Shown here in pieces: positions 17,556 to 51,374 of a DNA stretch of 64,000 bases (the stretch's first letter is position 1; each line of letters starts with the position of its first letter). Source of the stretch: Phorcus lineatus (taxonomy: Eukaryota > Mollusca > Gastropoda > Trochida > Trochidae); the NCBI GenBank assembly GCA_921293015.1, contig OV121092.1, forward strand, positions 31,627,764 through 31,691,763. The letters run 5' to 3'. Both the position numbers and the translations under genes were made by a program. Under the pieces are notes generated by a model. It worked only from the letters and a program-made list of their open reading frames with translations. It was not told the origin of the DNA and made no database searches.

Positions 17556-18291
17556 GTTTTTTTCTGCCAAATTTTTGTTGGTCGAGGAAACTCATTTTTG
17601 AAAAAAAAGTTTGGTAGCATTCCGATGTTTTAAATAATTTGCTATATATGTCGGGATGGCATGAGTTCCTTCCAGTGAACTAAAGACAAGGGGCCGGGTG
17701 CTCGTTGACTACGGCCGTCCCGAACCTATCATTCTCGGAAGAGAAGTCAAAAGTTGAAAAACTTTTGTAATCCACAACTGACAATCAGAACTTTCCTGAC
17801 GTAGAAGGCAGTTGTTCGCGACTCGCCGGCTCGTTGCATAGGAGTCAGAAGGCGGCATCAGGGTTGATAATGTTGATACAACGTCGGCGGCCGTCGGTGC
17901 CATCGGCACCTTCGGCGGGATTGTGAAAAGTCGTCCAAAAGTTAGAAAGTGTCCGGCGACATTAGAACTTGTTCGGCTGGATTGTGAAAAGTTGTCCGAA
18001 AGTTAGAAATTGTCCAGCAATGTTAGAATTTGTCCTGATTTGTTATTTTTGCAAATCGTGAAACAAAATGTCCGGCTTTCGCCAGGACAATTAGAAAATG
18101 TCCGGATTATTGATGACCGCTGGCGCCAAAGGCGCGCAACGGCAAATTTGTTTCAAACACTTACAAAATGTGGCAATTGAATGTCCATGAAGCTCACATT
18201 GAATTTCTCTGTACAACAGGTCATGTGTTGATGTTATTATATCTTGCGTGTGCCTAAATTATTTTCAATCATTTACAGATTGATGTGAAAG

Positions 18292-20286
18292 ATGCCTAAG
18301 GCCAGGAGGCCGCGAACCAGGAGTTGGGAAGGTCCGTCAACGTCTAGCGACGACGACTTCATCAACGAGGTCCATGCCGATGAAGCTTCTGATATGGAAT
18401 CAACTGATGAGAGTGATAGTGACAGTGACAGTGACAGTGATAGTGAAAGTGACATTGATAGTGATCAAGAAATAAGAAACATTGCAAGAGACATATTAGC
18501 TGGTACGGGTGAAACTGCTACGGCTGGTACTTCCACAGAGGAAGAGTTCAGTGGCTTTGACGAGCAATATAATGAAATGGACACACATTTTGATGACCAA
18601 GATAATTTTATGGATCGCTGGGAAGAGGGGCCGAGGCAACGTGGACGTGTCGACTTGCATTTTACTGGCGCAACGGGATTAGGACGGTTTATAGAATTGC
18701 CTGATAACCCGCAACCTGTAGACTTTTTCGGACTGTTTTTTCATGAAGATGATTATGGATCATTGGCAGCAGAAACCAACAGATACTTCCACCAACAGGT
18801 CGATGATAAGGTTCTGAAACCCTGTTCACGGTTGAGGCACTGGTATGATACGAATGCCGAAGAAATGAAAGTATTCATTGCAATGACAATAGCAATGTCT
18901 CTGGTTGTACAGAGAAACTTTTCTGAGTATTGGTCAACAAGTGATGTTACGTCGACGCCCTTCTTTTCCAAGTGCATGCCCCGCGACAGGTTCTGGCTAC
19001 TGCTAACGTATCTACATTTGAATGATAACAACCTAATGCCGGGACGAAACACTCCGCATTTTTCACCAATGAATAAACTTGGCTATCTGTACCAACGCAT
19101 CGTGCATCGTTTTTCCAGAGTTTATAAGTCGCATCAAAACATTTGTGTTGACGAAGGGTTGGTGCCTTGGAAAGGCAAACTGAGTTTCAAAGTATATAAT
19201 CCCGACAAGCCGAAGAAGTATGGGATAAAGGCCTACATGTTGTGCGACTCAACAAATGGTTATGTTTGCAAGTTCAAACTCTACACTGGAAAAACAAATG
19301 AAGCTGTTTCTGTTGGTGGGAAAACGTATGATCTCGTCATGGACTTGGTGAAGGAATATGCTGGGAAAGGGTATCATGTGTTCATGGACAATTTCTATTC
19401 CTCGGTGGCATTGTATATAAACTTGTGGGAAATGGGAACTGGTGCGACGGGAACTTTGAGAGGAAATCGCAAAGGCATTCCTGAAAAGCTAAAGAAGGCA
19501 CAGAAGAATCAGAAGAAAGGGGATATGACAATCTATCACAATCAAGACCTACTCGTTTTGCGGTATGAGGACAGGAAGTCAGTGTTGCTCATGTCAACCG
19601 TAGAAGACGCCGAAATTGTAGAGACAGGGAAGAAGAACCGAGTGACTGGGGAAGCAAATACGAGACCACGTATTGTGCACGAATACAACAAATATATGGG
19701 AGGTGTGGATCGGGCCGACCAGATGCTGTCGTACACCCCGTTCAAAATGAAAACTCTTAAATGGTGGAAGCGCGTGTGGTTTCATGTGTTGAACGTTGCC
19801 ATGTTGAATTCTTACATTATCTATAAAGAATTCTCAGAAGACAAACCTTTGAAAACAAGCCGTCAATTTAGAAAAGATTTGGTGCAGCATATGATCACCT
19901 TCGCCGAAACAGAAAAAGTGCCCTCCCTGCGCAGACGTCCTCGCGGCCGGCCGAGCACGAGCGACGATAGTGTCTTGCGACTCCATGGTCGTCACTTTCC
20001 ATCAAAGATTCAGCCTGTTGGAAAGAAGAAAAACCTAACACGCATGTGTGTTGTTTGCTCCAAAGCGAATAGAGAACTTCGTCGAAGGGAATTCAAAGAA
20101 ACAAATCAGCCAGTTCGAAAGAAGAAAAGGGTAGGCAAAGAATCTTCTTTCGAATGTATCGAGTGTAATGTGGCTCTATGTGCAGCACCATGTTTCAGAA
20201 TTTATCACACGTCACAAGATTGCACTAAAGCTTATATCAGTTTGATGTCAGAGAAGGAAAATGAGGGGGATAATCAAGAAGATTGA
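18292..20286 (+). CDS. piggyBac transposase (PGBD4-like)
   Basis: An intact 664-residue DDE_Tnp_1_7-type transposase that should cut and paste its own element at TTAA sites in the nucleus. The N terminus is acidic with a Ser-Asp run (41-58, coded by GTGATA-like repeats). The conserved core runs from about 140 to 505. The likely catalytic aspartates are D287 (CVDEGLVPWKG), D366 (HVFMDNFYSS) and D473 (GGVDRADQM), with spacing close to the well-studied moth enzyme. The C terminus has a Cys-rich zinc-binding domain: C586/C589, C622/C625, C630/C634, H639, C644. A basic stretch (547-553, 609-614) may import it. ATG at 18292 is the first in frame; a TTTACAG acceptor at 18271-18277 suggests a spliced leader. 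There are no stops or frameshifts, so the insertion is recent or still active. Confidence 0.95.
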   Translation: MPKARRPRTRSWEGPSTSSDDDFINEVHADEASDMESTDESDSDSDSDSDSESDIDSDQEIRNIARDILAGTGETATAGTSTEEEFSGFDEQYNEMDTHFDDQDNFMDRWEEGPRQRGRVDLHFTGATGLGRFIELPDNPQPVDFFGLFFHEDDYGSLAAETNRYFHQQVDDKVLKPCSRLRHWYDTNAEEMKVFIAMTIAMSLVVQRNFSEYWSTSDVTSTPFFSKCMPRDRFWLLLTYLHLNDNNLMPGRNTPHFSPMNKLGYLYQRIVHRFSRVYKSHQNICVDEGLVPWKGKLSFKVYNPDKPKKYGIKAYMLCDSTNGYVCKFKLYTGKTNEAVSVGGKTYDLVMDLVKEYAGKGYHVFMDNFYSSVALYINLWEMGTGATGTLRGNRKGIPEKLKKAQKNQKKGDMTIYHNQDLLVLRYEDRKSVLLMSTVEDAEIVETGKKNRVTGEANTRPRIVHEYNKYMGGVDRADQMLSYTPFKMKTLKWWKRVWFHVLNVAMLNSYIIYKEFSEDKPLKTSRQFRKDLVQHMITFAETEKVPSLRRRPRGRPSTSDDSVLRLHGRHFPSKIQPVGKKKNLTRMCVVCSKANRELRRREFKETNQPVRKKKRVGKESSFECIECNVALCAAPCFRIYHTSQDCTKAYISLMSEKENEGDNQED

Positions 20287-20396: not shown

Positions 20397-20554
20397 ATAA
20401 TCTTTTTTTTAAGTCGTAAAAGAGACAGAGAAAGTCAATGTGAGCTGTCACTGGACGTTCGATACGAGCCGCATCACGAACCTACCCCCGATCTTTCGCA
20501 ATTTGTTTTCTTAGAATCGGGTGGCGAAACTTCATACTTTTTACATCATCGTAA

Positions 20555-31246: not shown

Positions 31247-31800
31247 ATCAAACAGCCTGTACCGTAAATCATTAACGAAATAAGGCAATACATACAAATG
31301 TGACACTTCCGTCACGCCAATCACGAGCCTGCGAGAGATATCCGATGTTATTTTTATATCTTGGATTACATCTTTTCAATATGTTGGATGAAGATATATA
31401 CAACCAGTGAATGAAATGCGAAGCGATACTTCGCTGCTACCTTTAAAGGCCGGTAGTACATTCTTTGAAAGATTTACATCTTGAAATTTCACTCAATAGT
31501 AAGTGCCAATGTATTACCTTCAGAGGGTCGAAAATCACATTACTCTATCCAATCATACTATTGATACCTAAGGACATAATCAAGTATCAAGCAGAAACCA
31601 ATGGCCATAATTTTTATATGCACGCCTATCAATAACTTAAGGTATGGGAAAGTTTTTGCAAAACTTTACAGATCAAGGTATTTTCGTTATAAAACTGCTT
31701 ATTTTGATTAAAATAATTCTCTTGCATTTGGAAATGTTTTCGTAGGACCACTTCAATTTCCTAAAAAGGGACAGTAACCCGTTTTTTTAAATCAATAAAT

Positions 31801-32187
31801 AGTCCAGTAATTTTATGAGAATACCCACCACAAATTGCAACAGAAACGATTTCAACTGTTTTAAGTTTCTTGACTATTCCTTTATAACATATGAAAAATC
31901 TAGGAAAATCTAAGTGGTGGAACAAGGTCAAATTTGACCCCCAAGGTCATAGGGGTCATTGCCGGGTCCAAATCTTGTGTTGAAAAGCACATTTTAAAGA
32001 TATTTACTTTATGGTGTCATGTTATATATCAAATGAAAGCTCACAACACAGGCTTTTCAAAATGGTATAGTTTCATAGGGTTTAGACTGATAATATTAGT
32101 GCTATGAAAAAAAAATATATTTTAGAATATGAAAATCGTTGCGTCACATCCGTGTGTATATGAAGGTGACAGCAAAGCCAAGGATAT
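31801..32187 (+). repeat. Left inverted end of the long-TIR element
   Basis: It runs from AGTCCAGTAA inward to GGATAT and matches the reverse complement of 35642-36040 nearly throughout. Shared blocks include CCACCACAAATTGCAACAGA, GGTCAAATTTGACCCCCAAG and TTTAGACTGATAATATTAG. It contains TGACCCC/GGGGTCA words spaced like nuclear-receptor half-sites, probably by chance. Confidence 0.88.
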
Positions 32188-32478
32188 ATGTGAGGTCAAC
32201 GCTTTGCTGCTTTTAAAACATTTAACTTCAATATTTAAAGTAAAAAATAATATGTAAAAACATGCATCTGAGGTCCTTAAATTATAATTGACTGACATAT
32301 GTTGTCCTCCAAGTAGTACAGGAAGTACGGTCATGACACCAAATGTGACACTTTTTTTATTGCTTCTGCAACATTTTGATGGAAATAACGTAAATATTTT
32401 GCTTAATAGCATACATATAATATTCAAGCACTTAATTGACGTCAAACAAATGATAATTCAATCCATTTTATTTAGTTA

Positions 32479-35370
32479 TTGTACAGTGCTGCCTTTAAAC
32501 AAGGATCGGATATATCAGATGTTAACCCTGATTCATCACTTCAGTACATGGCTGACAACGTGGATCACAATGTAAGAACATTAGATGGATTTAACACTTT
32601 TCATGGAATGGGCATCATTGCCATAGTAACTCCAGCGCAAACAGAACACCCAGACCTTTGCCAAGAAAAGATGTCACAGCAGAAGACATTGTAACAATAG
32701 GATCAACATGCACTTCTACCAGTCTCCATCAAGTGGATTTCACAGCCTCAAGTACCTCCCGATATCTCAAGTGGATTGGACTGATCCAACATCCAATATT
32801 GACATACTCTGGTAGAGTGTCTGGCTACTCGTCCTACTCGGCCAAACTGTTCAGGCATGATGCAGGCTGTTCATCATGGTCATCATCCAGGACAAGCATC
32901 CGTTGTGTACCTGCCAATGATTGACATGAACCCAAGTGATGTGTCCTGTATATACACTATGTCAGTGTTCATCACCAAGCTAGCAGTGAGAAACAATGTC
33001 ACACCAATCATCACTTTTGATCAGCCTCTCCCGTGGAAAGCTTTGATGATAGTTTCAAGTGAATATTCATCAAGTGATTTGAGAAGCATCATCCTAAGGC
33101 TTGGAGGACTTCACACACAGATGAGCTTTTTAGGATGCATTGGACACATCATGTCTGGATCAGGTCTATTTGAACTTCTGGAAGTGATATATGCCAGTAA
33201 CACTGTGAATCACATACTAACTGGGAAAGCTGTTGCCAGAGCTATTCGAGGTCACTTTCTGGTAGACAGAGCTCTCAATGGCTTGTTGGTGTCAAGAACT
33301 TTAGATGTTGTTCCTAGGCTTTCTGCTGCTTGCCACTTCCCTTCCAGACACTGATGATGAGGATCTCAACACAGCAGTGATGATGTATGATGAGCTGATG
33401 AGTGATTCCTTAACTGTTGCTGAAGTATCCTCATCCAGCACATTAGAACGAATTCACCATCGGTTAACCCAAGAAAAAGGTGCACTTAGCAACATAAGGA
33501 CAGCCAAACTGTGGATCCAATACATGGATATGGTGGACATCATGCAAAAGTTCATCAAAGCTGAAAAATTAGGAAATTGAAAAATGCACCTAAAGTCTCT
33601 TGCTCAAATGTTGCCATTCACAACCTGTACACGAAATCAGTTCGATTGTACCTTCAGATGATGACCTCCCTACAAGAAACACATCCAAAGGTCTCTGATC
33701 TCTTCAACTCAGGTCATCATGTTATCCGGCGCTCTGATCGTTATTGGGGAGGACTTTCAACAGATCTTGTGATTGAACAGGTGCTAATGTGGAATATCAA
33801 GACTAATGGAGGACTTACAAGGGGAACAGGTATGTCTGAAACACAGAGGTTAGTTTGGCTTATGTCGATGCCATCATGTACAGAAGTTAGCAGTGCCATG
33901 ACCGATCTTAGAGTTACACAAGGATATGTCCAATGCAAGGCAAGAGAGAGACAAAAATGACACCATGAAACTTCTCCATTATCTGCAAGAATGAGATCCG
34001 TTCAAACATGATCCTTACCTCAGAAACATTGCAAATGGTGTCATCGCAAGTGCAACTGTGAATGCAGAAGAAGCGTGCTGTGTTGGTGGCTCAATTTTGG
34101 ACTCAATGAAAAACACAACCACTACTGATTTTAAATTCAAGAAGAATGATCACATTTAACAGATGAACAAGAGACCAATTAGAGAAGATGAAGAAATTTG
34201 TAACATTGATCCAGTGCTATTGTTTCAAGGGTACCTGATTGCTGGTAGATAATCAACACGTGACCTCCAAACTCTACTGAAGTTTGAACTATCAGCTTCT
34301 GATGTTGTGTATGTTCTCGATGGTGGTGCTCTGCTTCACACTGTTCCTTGGCCACGTGGAGTTTCATATGCTGACTTGTTCAACATGTACAGCACATATG
34401 TCAAGAAACACTATGACAGAGCAACTGTTGTCTTCGATAGATATTCCAATTCATCAACTAAGTACACAACACACATGAGACGGACTAGCGGAGCTGGTGG
34501 ACCAACAGTCAAATTTGATGAAAATATGATCTTGCAGTCAAAGAAAGAACCTTTTCTTGGCAATGTTCAGAATAAAGAGCAATTCATCACGATGTTGAGT
34601 TCAGTTCTACAAGCCGAAGGATGTGAAATCATTCAAGCAACTGGTGATGCTGATGTTTGGATTGTTCTCTAAGAAAAGTTCTCTAAAAAGGGTTCCCTTT
34701 TGGAACATCAAGGAAACTAAGAAAACACTCGGAGACAACACATTTCAGAATTTGTTGTTCCTTCTTGCTGTCCTAGGCTGTGAGACAACTTCAAGTATCC
34801 ATGGCGTTGGAAAAGCTGTTGCATTAAAGAAGTTCAAACAAGATGAATGTTTTAGAGATTGTGGAAAACCATTCAATCAGCCAATTGAAGCCATCACATC
34901 AGAGCAGATAATTCAAGCTGGGGAGAAAGCCATTGTTTATCTCCTAAATGGAGAAACAGGTGAAAGTCTGGACATGCTCAGATACAGACAGGTTTTGTGA
35001 GAAAATCGCCTCAAGTCAGATGCATGTACATCCTCAGAATCTCCCGCCTACCTCAGCAGCAGTCGAGTACCATAGCCTCAGAGTATATTTTCAGATCCAA
35101 GAGTGGAAAGGAAGACATCTAGATCTCTAGCTGAGTTTGACGGATTGGGGATGGAAAACAGATGGCAAGAAGATTTTACCTTTGGGAACAGATCTTGCCC
35201 CAGCTCCAAAAGAATTGTTGACAGTTATTAGGTGTAATTGCAAAACAAACATGTGCAATTCTCAAAGATGCACATGTAAGAAACATGGATTGAGATGTAC
35301 TCATCTGTGCAGTGTCTGTCGTGGCTGCGCATGTCTTAATGCTCAAAGGCTTGACCTCAGTGATGATTGA
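32479..35370 (+). pseudogene. Decayed ORF, PIN/FEN-like plus CXC cysteine cluster
   Basis: A broken coding region (about 900 codons) has frame changes near 32650, 32700, 32848, 33330 and 33610, stops at 33578-33580, ~33994 and 34670-34672, and gaps near 34160-34260 and 34672. In order, readable parts include DNVDHN...LDG..TFHGMG (~32550), YLPMIDMNPSD..CIYT and TFDQPLPWKA (~32900-33045), LRLGGLHTQMSFLG (~33100), RRSDRYWGGLSTDLVIEQ (~33730), YVLDGGALLH...PWPRG (~34305), TVVFDRY..SSTKYTTHMRR (~34430), TGDADVWIV (~34640), LAVLGCETTSSIHGVGK (~34765) and a CNCK...CTCKK...C..C cluster (~35230-35345). I recall this order from large uncharacterised invertebrate proteins. The D-rich motifs resemble PIN/FEN nucleases and the tail resembles tesmin CXC domains; both calls are by eye. 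The expected second acidic motif after TGDAD is missing. Confidence 0.7.
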
Positions 35371-35641
35371 GTCAATCTTTTAAAGGTAAATTGATGGAGA
35401 CATTGCCAAATAAAAATGATCTAAAGTAACTCAGTATGAAAAATAATTAATTCATTATTATATATAAAATCCTAAACAAAATTTTCAATTGACAAAATGA
35501 CCTTAGATTCACAAAGCTATATCTGGTGAATTTAAGTATTTAACTTACATTCTCCTCGTTATATTTGGTTTGTCAAGTTGTTGATGAAGATTTATTCTAA
35601 CATCTCTACATGTGTACAAATAACATAAATGATAGAAAAAA

Positions 35642-36040
35642 AGATATCCATTGACTTCAGTGTCACCTTCATTGGCATATGGATGTGACGAAATGATTTT
35701 CATATTCTAAAATATATTTTTGTTTCATAGCACTAATATTATCAGTCTAAACCCTATGAAACTATACAATTTCGAAAAGCTTGTGTTGTGAGCTTTCATT
35801 TGATATATAACATGACACCATAAAGTAAATATTTTTAAAATGTGCTATCAATACAAGATTTTGAACCCGGCAATGACCCCTATGACCTTGGGGGTCAAAT
35901 TTGACCTTGTTCCACCACTTAGATTTTCCTAGATTTTTCATATGTTATAAAGTAATGGTCCAGGAACTTAAAACAGTTGAAATCGTTTCTGTTGCAATTT
36001 GTGGTGGGTTTGGTCAAATATTCACCAGGATTACTGGACT
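35642..36040 (-). repeat. Right inverted end of the long-TIR element
   Basis: This is the reverse-complement partner of 31801-32187. It ends TTACTGGACT at 36040 and is followed by a flipped copy of the outer repeat to about 36395. Confidence 0.88.
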
Positions 36041-36420
36041 AAAAGTGATCTCACGGAAATGGAAATAAATGAAACCTATGTTACACCTATAACCTTTAAT
36101 GATATTACCTATAAACCTATTATCTCATCAAATGAAGCAATTCTAAACGAAGGTACCATGTTCACTTAAATTATGGGATTCCATTTCTCTAACTCAAATG
36201 ATAAAAAGGTGTTAAACATGGCCACCACTATTCATTTGCTTAATCCTCGATAAGTTCTTCCTCATCAGCGGACGTCAGGATAGATTAATGAGATGTGTGA
36301 CACTCATTAGATAAAACTTTTGGCATAAACGTATTTTTATTGTAGAAAATTTGAAGAGATTAATTTAAAAAAAAGTATTTCTGCCCCTTTAAAGACGTCT
36401 TTACATTTTCAATTTATGTT

Positions 36421-48828: not shown

Positions 48829-50222
48829 GTAGAGTAAATTCGATACTTCGTTTATCCATTTTCTTAAACAGAAATTGTTCCAGGCTGTGGTTGTTATAAA
48901 TGTCATGTCAGAGTAGCACGGATGTTCATCGTAAGATCGAAAGTGCATATACCATACACATTTGTTTCTTTAAATATACTTGTTCTTTATACGTTATGTT
49001 TTCTGTAAGTATTCTTTTAGGAACATTTTATTGTAATCATCATGTAATATTATAAACTGGAATCATAAAATGATAGTGAATTCGGCATAAAATGAGATTT
49101 TCATGATGTATAAAAGTAGAGTTGCTTATAACATCAGCAATTTTGTTTGTTTCTTATGGAATTTATCATATATTTACGAAGGCGATTCATTGTTATTCAT
49201 TGTTTTGTTTAATAGCATGGTTAAGATATGCAACAATGTTACTATTAACATTTCGCTGTCACTTCATTAACAACTTTTAACACCCAATATCAAATGATTT
49301 GTTCTCATCTTATAAACAGATAATTAATACAAATATCAATTATGAAAACGTTTTTTTAAAACACAAATTAGTTTTGTTTTGATAGAAAATAATCAGAAAC
49401 TATCATAACATTTGAGAATTAGTATACATGTGATGGATATAAATACCGATGGTATAGGAATTAATTGTAATGTGATTGAATGACACAAAGTGTAATAAAC
49501 TAATAGAAAACGTTCAATGCACCATATCAAAAGGAGAATGTATTGTATAAAATGGCTTTACACAATATTTATGCTTACTATGTCAGATTAAAGGAGAACA
49601 GAGACGGCGATGATGATACATTTAACAACATGCCCTTATAAAGTGACAATGAACTCTATATATCATATAAAGCACTCTATTATTGCTTTGTCGGATTGAA
49701 CACTAACGACATATTATACTGTGTATGAATGTCCTCTCATGTAATTTTGATATCATGAGTGACAAAACTTGATCCCACTGCTGAACAAAAGTTTGTTTCA
49801 CCGTCTATGAATTCCTACGTAAATTACAGTTTTGGGAAAAGCGTCACAATTTCTTAGCAATAGATGGTACAGTCAAGTGTTTTAAATAATTTTGTGAAGG
49901 CAACATTTTCACACTATAGTACAAGACATTTGAGTTTTTTCAGTTTGGACCCTTTAGTGTTGCATCCCTGCAAAATGTATTCCTGCACTAAAATAAGTAT
50001 CATCTTTCAGTATGCCCTTGAAATATGATTTTCCTCGTCTTTTGAAAACATCATCTATCTTTCTTGTCCGGATGAGAAAAATAAATCAATAAAAATCCTT
50101 AGAAAGTCATTGTTTGATCGTATTTATATAGAATTCTTTTTTATGCTTCCCTAATTGTATTATATTTATTTTTTTCAGATTTTCGTCTATCGAACAGCAA
50201 GTATCTGTACAGTATAAAAAGA

Positions 50223-51374
50223 ATGAACTATACGAATCAATCAAGTTTAATGTGTCATTATAAAACTTGTGTAAATGCTTCAAACAGCTCTTTTGAATGG
50301 CCAGCCCTAGAGCAACTTGTGTTTGACATTGAAACAGTTTACCTCTGGATAATTCTAATTTTAGGGGTTCCTGGGAATTGTGCTACAATATTCACTGTAA
50401 CAAATATATCACCGACCAAGTCTCTAACTGTGTACATTGCTCTCTTGGCAGTTGTGGACAACTTGGCTATCATCAGTAAATTGCTGATGTTTGTACTCCT
50501 TGACCATAAAATCATTATTGGTAAAGCTGGGTGTAAGCTTCTTGGATACCTCGGTAATTTCCTCAGCACCTTCGCTAATTGGATTCTCGTCGCTCTTTCT
50601 ATTGAGAGATTTGCAGCAGTGTGGTTTCCTGTCAAAATGGCTCAAATCTGGACATTTAAGAAATCTACAATTACTGTTTCTATAACTGCTGTCATTTTAG
50701 CAACCTTGTTCTTGCATTTGTTCTGGACAATGACATTTGCTGTTGATGATTCCGATGGAATGGTTTACTGCAGTGCAGAGCTGGAATATATTCACTTCCT
50801 ACAGAACGTCTGGTACTGGATTAATGTGGTGATCTATGCTACACTACCGTGTGTTCTACTGGTCGTGTTTAATGTGTTGATCATCATTGGCATTGTCAGA
50901 GCTAAAAGGATGACAAGGTACCTGAAAGGAATCAAATCACCTCGAACGGTGACCACAAGCAGCGAGAGCCAGAGACAAATTACAGTGATGCTTGTGACTG
51001 CTGCCATCACTCTTGTTGTGCTGACCACCCCCAGGAGTGTGGTGCTCATCCTCACCCGCCATTATGACCCCCCGGAAAAGTCTCTGGCTGGTTCTGTGTA
51101 CTATTTGGTGGACACACTAGCTTTCATCCTCTGTGACTTCAATCATGCTATCAACTTTTACGTGTATTCCCTCAGTGCAAAAAGATTTCGAAGACAGTTC
51201 TTTCAGTTGATTTCGTGTAAGAAGAATCATGAAAGTCACAGGTCTTCACAATATATTTCTCTCAGCTATCGTCAGAGTACAAAGCGTTTTACAATAACTC
51301 AACCAGTGAAGGACAGAAACAATTCATATAAACAAGAGATAAATCTGTTAAAGGTTAATGACAGTCATTGTTGA
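50223..51374 (+). CDS. Class A (rhodopsin-like) GPCR, peptide-receptor type
   Basis: An intact 383-residue seven-helix receptor for an extracellular ligand, acting at the plasma membrane through G proteins. The N terminus has N-glycosylation sequons at N2, N5, N18 and N21. Landmarks are GVPGN (48-52, N1.50), LAVVD with D79 (D2.50), Cys104 and Cys183 for the usual disulfide, ERF 128-130 in place of DRY, Pro209 in helix 5, LTTP with Pro270 in helix 6, and N311-F-Y-V-Y315 where NPxxY is usual. An amphipathic KRFRRQF (320-326) follows, with Cys332 as a possible palmitoylation site. The tail is Ser/Thr-rich. The coding region is one exon. The layout resembles lineage-expanded FMRFamide/TRH-receptor-like orphans of molluscs and annelids; the ligand cannot be told from sequence. 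Confidence 0.93.
   Translation: MNYTNQSSLMCHYKTCVNASNSSFEWPALEQLVFDIETVYLWIILILGVPGNCATIFTVTNISPTKSLTVYIALLAVVDNLAIISKLLMFVLLDHKIIIGKAGCKLLGYLGNFLSTFANWILVALSIERFAAVWFPVKMAQIWTFKKSTITVSITAVILATLFLHLFWTMTFAVDDSDGMVYCSAELEYIHFLQNVWYWINVVIYATLPCVLLVVFNVLIIIGIVRAKRMTRYLKGIKSPRTVTTSSESQRQITVMLVTAAITLVVLTTPRSVVLILTRHYDPPEKSLAGSVYYLVDTLAFILCDFNHAINFYVYSLSAKRFRRQFFQLISCKKNHESHRSSQYISLSYRQSTKRFTITQPVKDRNNSYKQEINLLKVNDSHC

Follow-up and report, generated by a model that had tools for sequence, protein, structure and literature searches.

A 64,000-nucleotide stretch of contig OV121092.1 of the trochid snail Phorcus lineatus (positions 31,627,764 to 31,691,763 of the forward strand, hereafter the window) was analyzed around a mobile element of 4,242 bp with long terminal inverted repeats and a single coding region that is broken in frame. 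The element is a non-autonomous deletion derivative of what is likely a cut-and-paste transposon of the AcademX type, the XPG-nuclease branch of the Academ superfamily, as judged from the protein of its longer relatives and from the target-site duplications. It is inserted in an older repeat, and the features of the locus are, in window coordinates:

31441..31799: left arm of an interspersed repeat that is older than the element, unrelated to it, and split by its insertion; matches elsewhere in the genome
31797..31799: left target-site duplication (AAA); a single AAA in two of three related empty sites examined
31800..36041, plus strand: non-autonomous element, 4,242 bp, TAGTCCAG...CTGGACTA; seven near-identical copies with different flanks
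31800..32187, plus strand: left terminal inverted repeat, from inverted-repeat comparison and copy alignment
32482..32483: site of a shared deletion of ~1.6 kb relative to the older copies L015, L016, and L017; a non-coding stretch and the N-terminal cysteine-rich region
32483..34292, plus strand: broken remnant of the conserved central region, DUF6589-like, a candidate for a DDE transposase core and containing the motifs ADN, FDQ, and IEQ
34292..34293: site of a shared 111-bp deletion relative to L015 and L017
34293..34860, plus strand: broken remnant of a FEN/XPG-like nuclease with the motifs LDGG, VVFDRY, TGDAD, and GCETTS..HGVGK
34668..34669: site of a shared deletion of ~122 bp relative to L015, L016, and L017 that removed a DDTDLLVLL motif
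35230..35343, plus strand: C-terminal CXC-like cysteine cluster; Pfam TCR below cut-off, cysteine pattern common to the relatives
35644..36041, minus strand: right terminal inverted repeat, from the same comparisons as the left
36042..36044: right target-site duplication (AAA); a single AAA in two of three related empty sites examined
36042..36395: right arm of the split older repeat; matches in all three related copies examined, with the empty site crossing the junction in two

The host genome (958 Mb) was searched with the left inverted arm for further copies, a check that the preliminary description of the locus had called for. A total of 45 matches were found (the best 40 of 77 first-look candidates were scored), seven of which, including the window copy, showed 99–100% identity across the full query; 14 more stretches were collected along with the six other copies. 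The 21 pairwise identities within this 4.2-kb family range from 99.45% to 99.93% (gaps excluded), and its spread was therefore recent. The similarity between the window copy and the six other copies ends at 31789–31800 and 36041–36046. The preliminary description had placed the bounds at 31441 and 36395, but the termini and the AAA duplication lie near 31800 and 36041. It was right on the terminal inverted repeats of ~390 bp per side, which consist of arms with 93% (31807–31972 and 35860–36025) and 92% identity (31986–32181 and 35651–35846), on the mobility of the element, and on the presence of only one, decayed coding region.

Exact duplications of 3 bp flank every one of the seven copies (AAA, TTG, TAA, TTA, ATA, AAA, and ATA). 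Overall, each of the 11 elements for which both termini were found, namely the seven copies and the relatives L016, L030, L033, and L035, has an exact 3-bp duplication (the full set being completed by TTT, ATA, TAT, and CAA), and none of the 11 has a 4-bp match. Outside this count are L015 and L017 (which lack one recognizable end), L031 and L032 (collected without their left ends), L029 and L034 (no TAGTCCAG ends), and L018–L028. The duplications bear on membership in another described superfamily (Harbinger, EnSpm/CACTA, P/Galileo, or Kolobok). Harbinger and CACTA elements also make 3-bp duplications, and Galileo has very long inverted ends. However, Harbinger duplications are TWA and only two of the 11 duplications are TAA or TTA, CACTA elements end in CACTA/G and the window element in TAGTCCAG, the duplications are 3 bp rather than 8 bp, and no DDE_Tnp family of Pfam was matched, all of which makes such a membership highly unlikely.

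The preliminary description had also considered that the inverted ends might extend to ~750 bp. The inverted similarity of the outer flanks is indeed above chance (26 identities in the best 32-nt match, compared with at most 23 in 200 mononucleotide shuffles) but it belongs to the older repeat. The left flank (31441–31799) matches 39 other places in the genome at 69–75% identity, with the best 40 of 848 first-look candidates scored, and both flanks match in opposite orientations in the three best related copies, the ones examined. The outer flanks are thus the arms of an older fold-back-like repeat, which is apparently abundant in the host genome given the number of first-look candidates. When the two flanks were joined and compared with the three related copies, two aligned across the junction (78% over 63 bp and 76% over 51 bp), and in one of these (L044) the empty site contains the identical stretch ATAAAGTGATCTCAC, that is, a single AAA. 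In the third copy (L042) the match to the joined flanks ends before the junction. The empty site across the junction in two of three related copies shows that the element jumped into the older repeat.

All seven 4.2-kb copies align end to end and lack three stretches that are found in the older copies. The first of these (~1.6 kb) also includes ~0.4 kb ahead of the first frame. The loss at the third site is a net figure: 123 bases in L015 correspond to a single base in the 4.2-kb copies, and similar stretches are present in L016 and L017. In L015 the lost stretch codes for VVIGDDTDLLVLL, and since it is gone and the frame is broken, the 4.2-kb copies are unable to make an intact nuclease. They are non-autonomous deletion derivatives. 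L016 carries an additional deletion of its own and has a length of 4,301 bp. Intron loss, with the 4.2-kb copies as retrocopies, was considered as the origin of the three gaps and was rejected because the older copies have coding sequence in these places, apart from the ~0.4 kb ahead of the first frame.

A genome search with the L016 protein identified 92 matches (the best 90 of 364 candidates were scored), some of which are pieces of one copy and many of which contain stops. Seven relatives were collected, five of them (L029–L033) with a single frame of 1,381–1,536 codons and two (L034 and L035) with two frames, all read from stop to stop. Uninterrupted frames of 1,479 codons (L030) and 1,536 codons (L033) lie within the same termini and are flanked by 3-bp duplications, and L035 has 338-bp inverted repeats with 97% identity, so that relatives between inverted ends, which had been anticipated, are present in the same genome. 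A single 7.1-kb family is represented by L030, L031, and L032, which are 99.5–99.7% identical over the shared part, with a ratio of non-synonymous to synonymous substitution (dN/dS) of 0.21–0.24 that is based on few differences (5–8 synonymous and 4–6 non-synonymous). No further frame of at least 150 codons is listed in L030–L033. The N-terminal part of L029 is in a second frame that overlaps the first, and the coding frame has a 115-bp inverted repeat (77%) on its two sides. The relatives with uninterrupted frames are presumably autonomous.

Long uninterrupted frames in five relatives of three families and a dN/dS below 1 in L030–L032 would also be expected of a host gene, or a family of them, with inverted repeats on both sides by chance. 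That reading is refuted for the window element by the copies with target duplications and the empty site. The near-identical copies at different sites and the 92 protein matches, many with stops, leave it extremely improbable overall.

The most divergent relative, L034 (C7:32675500-32683499), keeps the order of the regions and is 37% identical to L033 in the nuclease part. No TAGTCCAG termini were found in L034, its match to NYN_YacP (E = 0.0016) is below the family cut-off, and it possibly represents a separate branch.

The motifs quoted in the preliminary description (LDGG, VVFDRY, TGDAD, the GCETTS..HGVGK block, and the C-terminal cysteines) are present in the frames, and its reading of a PIN/FEN-like nuclease gained support from profile comparisons. 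A profile of six sequences of the C-terminal part of the protein (A2) was compared with 177,635 PDB sequences and found Exonuclease 1 first (E = 0.0074, domain E = 0.023). The nine matches up to E = 10 consist of three to Exonuclease 1 (0.0074, 0.0077, and 0.063) and six to antibodies (0.029–0.91), and the Exonuclease 1 match is collinear across the acidic motifs and GCD..S..GIG. Furthermore, hhalign matched A2 to a host XPG_I protein (L036) at 92.2% (E = 6e-7, 219 columns) and to the piggyBac and receptor proteins of the window, which served as controls, at 0.1% each. Because of the Exonuclease 1 and L036 matches, the PIN/FEN reading is supported and the protein is predicted to have a FEN/XPG-family (PIN-superfamily) nuclease region. 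The C-terminal cluster had been described as CXC-like, which agrees with a cysteine pattern that is common to the relatives. L036 itself (C37:8626570 region) has an open frame of 732 codons or more and is therefore apparently intron-free in that stretch; its motifs indicate that it is probably EXO1. The broken pieces of the window element gave nothing above cut-off or convincing against Pfam, PHROGs, and PDB sequences, the best match of the whole-protein profile (A1) in NCBIfam has E = 0.086, and no relative was confirmed in viral and genomic contig collections.

In the uninterrupted relatives, a conserved region of ~700–800 amino acids precedes the nuclease in the open frame. It matches DUF6589 (PF20231) with E = 1e-4 to 8e-4 in three of six families scanned (L030/L031, L034, and L035), and in an alignment (A3) the motifs ADN (5/5 covering rows), FDQ (6/6), and IEQ (6/6) are conserved. 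The region is probably the transposase, and these acidic motifs may form a DDE core. The preliminary description had noted the absence of a standard transposase, which stands insofar as no Pfam transposase (DDE_Tnp) was matched in the frames of the relatives, but not with respect to the probable transposase region upstream of the nuclease; its proposal that the nuclease replaces a classical transposase is not supported, given this conserved region. DUF6589 is a Pfam entry without function, and a literature search by name found none. The match of A3 to L036 is 0.4%, and no helicase was found above cut-off in the frames of the relatives, the only candidate being D5_N (helicase-associated) in L015 with E = 0.06, below cut-off.

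An undescribed superfamily, with ends cut by the FEN/XPG-like nuclease itself and a central region that serves only for DNA binding or structure, would agree with the lack of Pfam transposase domains in the scanned frames of the relatives and with a nuclease region that alone shows recognizable enzyme homology. It is distinctly unlikely, as the central region is large, strongly conserved, and has acidic motifs in common, target duplications of a constant 3 bp are characteristic of DDE strand transfer, and joining of DNA ends is not known from FEN/XPG enzymes. A related possibility is that the element stands outside the described superfamilies and has a single protein with a DUF6589-like integrase core, an essential end-processing FEN/XPG-like nuclease, and a CXC-like module, which would make DUF6589 a large, unrecognized transposase family; this appears unlikely.

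Several results weigh against the assignment to AcademX, which is based on described traits, and the domain predictions on which it draws. The Exonuclease 1 match is modest (E = 0.0074); among the PDB sequences, Exonuclease 1 was not found with the window piece alone or with A1, whose one match there was by chance, and a Pfam scan of the frames of the relatives gave no XPG_N or XPG_I match. The matches to Pfam TCR (tesmin/TSO1 CXC) are below cut-off (E = 1.2 for the window piece and 0.21 for L016, 0.21–9.5 overall). The DUF6589 matches are all under the curated cut-off (at best 21.6 vs 27 bits) and L033, L029, and L015, three of the six families scanned, have none. The central region (A3) found no transposase among the PDB sequences, with one chance match, and showed no similarity to the piggyBac transposase of the window (0.3%). 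Finally, L030–L032 have no ATG ahead of the N-terminal cysteine region, and the start may lie in a 5' exon.

With AcademX as the preferred reading, the longer elements of 6–7 kb would encode one protein of ~1,500 amino acids that binds the conserved termini. Its N-terminal cysteine-rich region probably binds DNA, and its central DUF6589-like region is probably a DDE transposase, which would carry out the cutting and joining of the ends at a stagger of 3 bp. The substrates trimmed by the FEN/XPG-like structure-specific nuclease would be flaps, second strands, or branched intermediates, and a CXC-like cluster follows at the C-terminus. With both of their ends complete, the 4.2-kb copies spread recently and would have done so via the protein of a longer relative. 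We infer this division of labor, the supply of protein in trans, and the Academ membership from the comparisons above. Recent non-autonomous copies and relatives with uninterrupted frames occur in one genome, with a nuclease of a DNA-repair type within the putative mobility protein, and with such a pair in one genome, what the nuclease does can be tested. The results also provide a lead for naming DUF6589. The preliminary description mentions large proteins with the same motif order in many invertebrates, and the present data suggest that such large unannotated proteins are transposon proteins.

Two further genes were observed in the window. A piggyBac-type transposase is encoded by an open frame of 665 codons (18289–20286, plus strand; DDE_Tnp_1_7, E = 1.1e-91) that is bracketed by a 22-bp inverted repeat (18191–18212 and 20425–20446); a simple scan found no TTAA-bounded 13-bp ends. 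A 418-codon frame (50118–51374, plus strand) encodes a Rhodopsin-family G-protein-coupled receptor (7tm_1, E = 4.1e-14).

The Academ superfamily and its AcademX lineage are said to go back to Kapitonov and Jurka in 2010 and Kojima in 2020, and the latter reportedly described AcademX with a transposase and an XPG nuclease in one protein. The predicted nuclease and the 3-bp duplications match the traits described for AcademX, which is the reason for the assignment. According to the available part of one source, AcademX has duplications of 3–4 bp and AcademH of 9–10 bp, linked to an encoded nuclease and helicase, respectively (PMC10045372). An element with a nuclease and such short duplications is already described there, which speaks against both an undescribed superfamily and the undescribed element class proposed in the preliminary description; an undescribed class is probably not at hand, judging from a literature searched without most subscription journals. 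Academ or AcademH is mentioned without a testable description in the available parts of seven further sources (PMC9587614, PMC10799480, PMC9783078, PMC4455052, PMC6327564, PMC5704228, and PMC12210899). The nuclease region profiled in A2 resembles the FEN/XPG family (EXO1, FEN1, XPG, and GEN1) in the collinear motifs VFDG...K..RR, AD, ED.DLL, and GCD..S..GIG, but the similarity is remote and the nuclease is here fused into a transposon protein; the likeness of this protein to DUF6589 is confined to the sub-threshold matches of the central region. The element shares with AcademH the superfamily by name but differs from the helicase and 9–10 bp duplications stated for AcademH (PMC10045372, in part). 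The size of the element is close to the mean of 5,565 bp of 100 curated, mostly bivalve Academ consensus elements in the accessible portion of another study (PMC10294476). Compared with AcademX, the copy in the window differs in being non-autonomous and having inverted ends of ~390 bp, and the CXC-like C-terminal cluster may be a further difference; like AcademX, as far as the excerpt describes it, it is a DNA transposon with terminal inverted repeats, an element-borne nuclease, and duplications that fall within 3–4 bp (PMC10045372).

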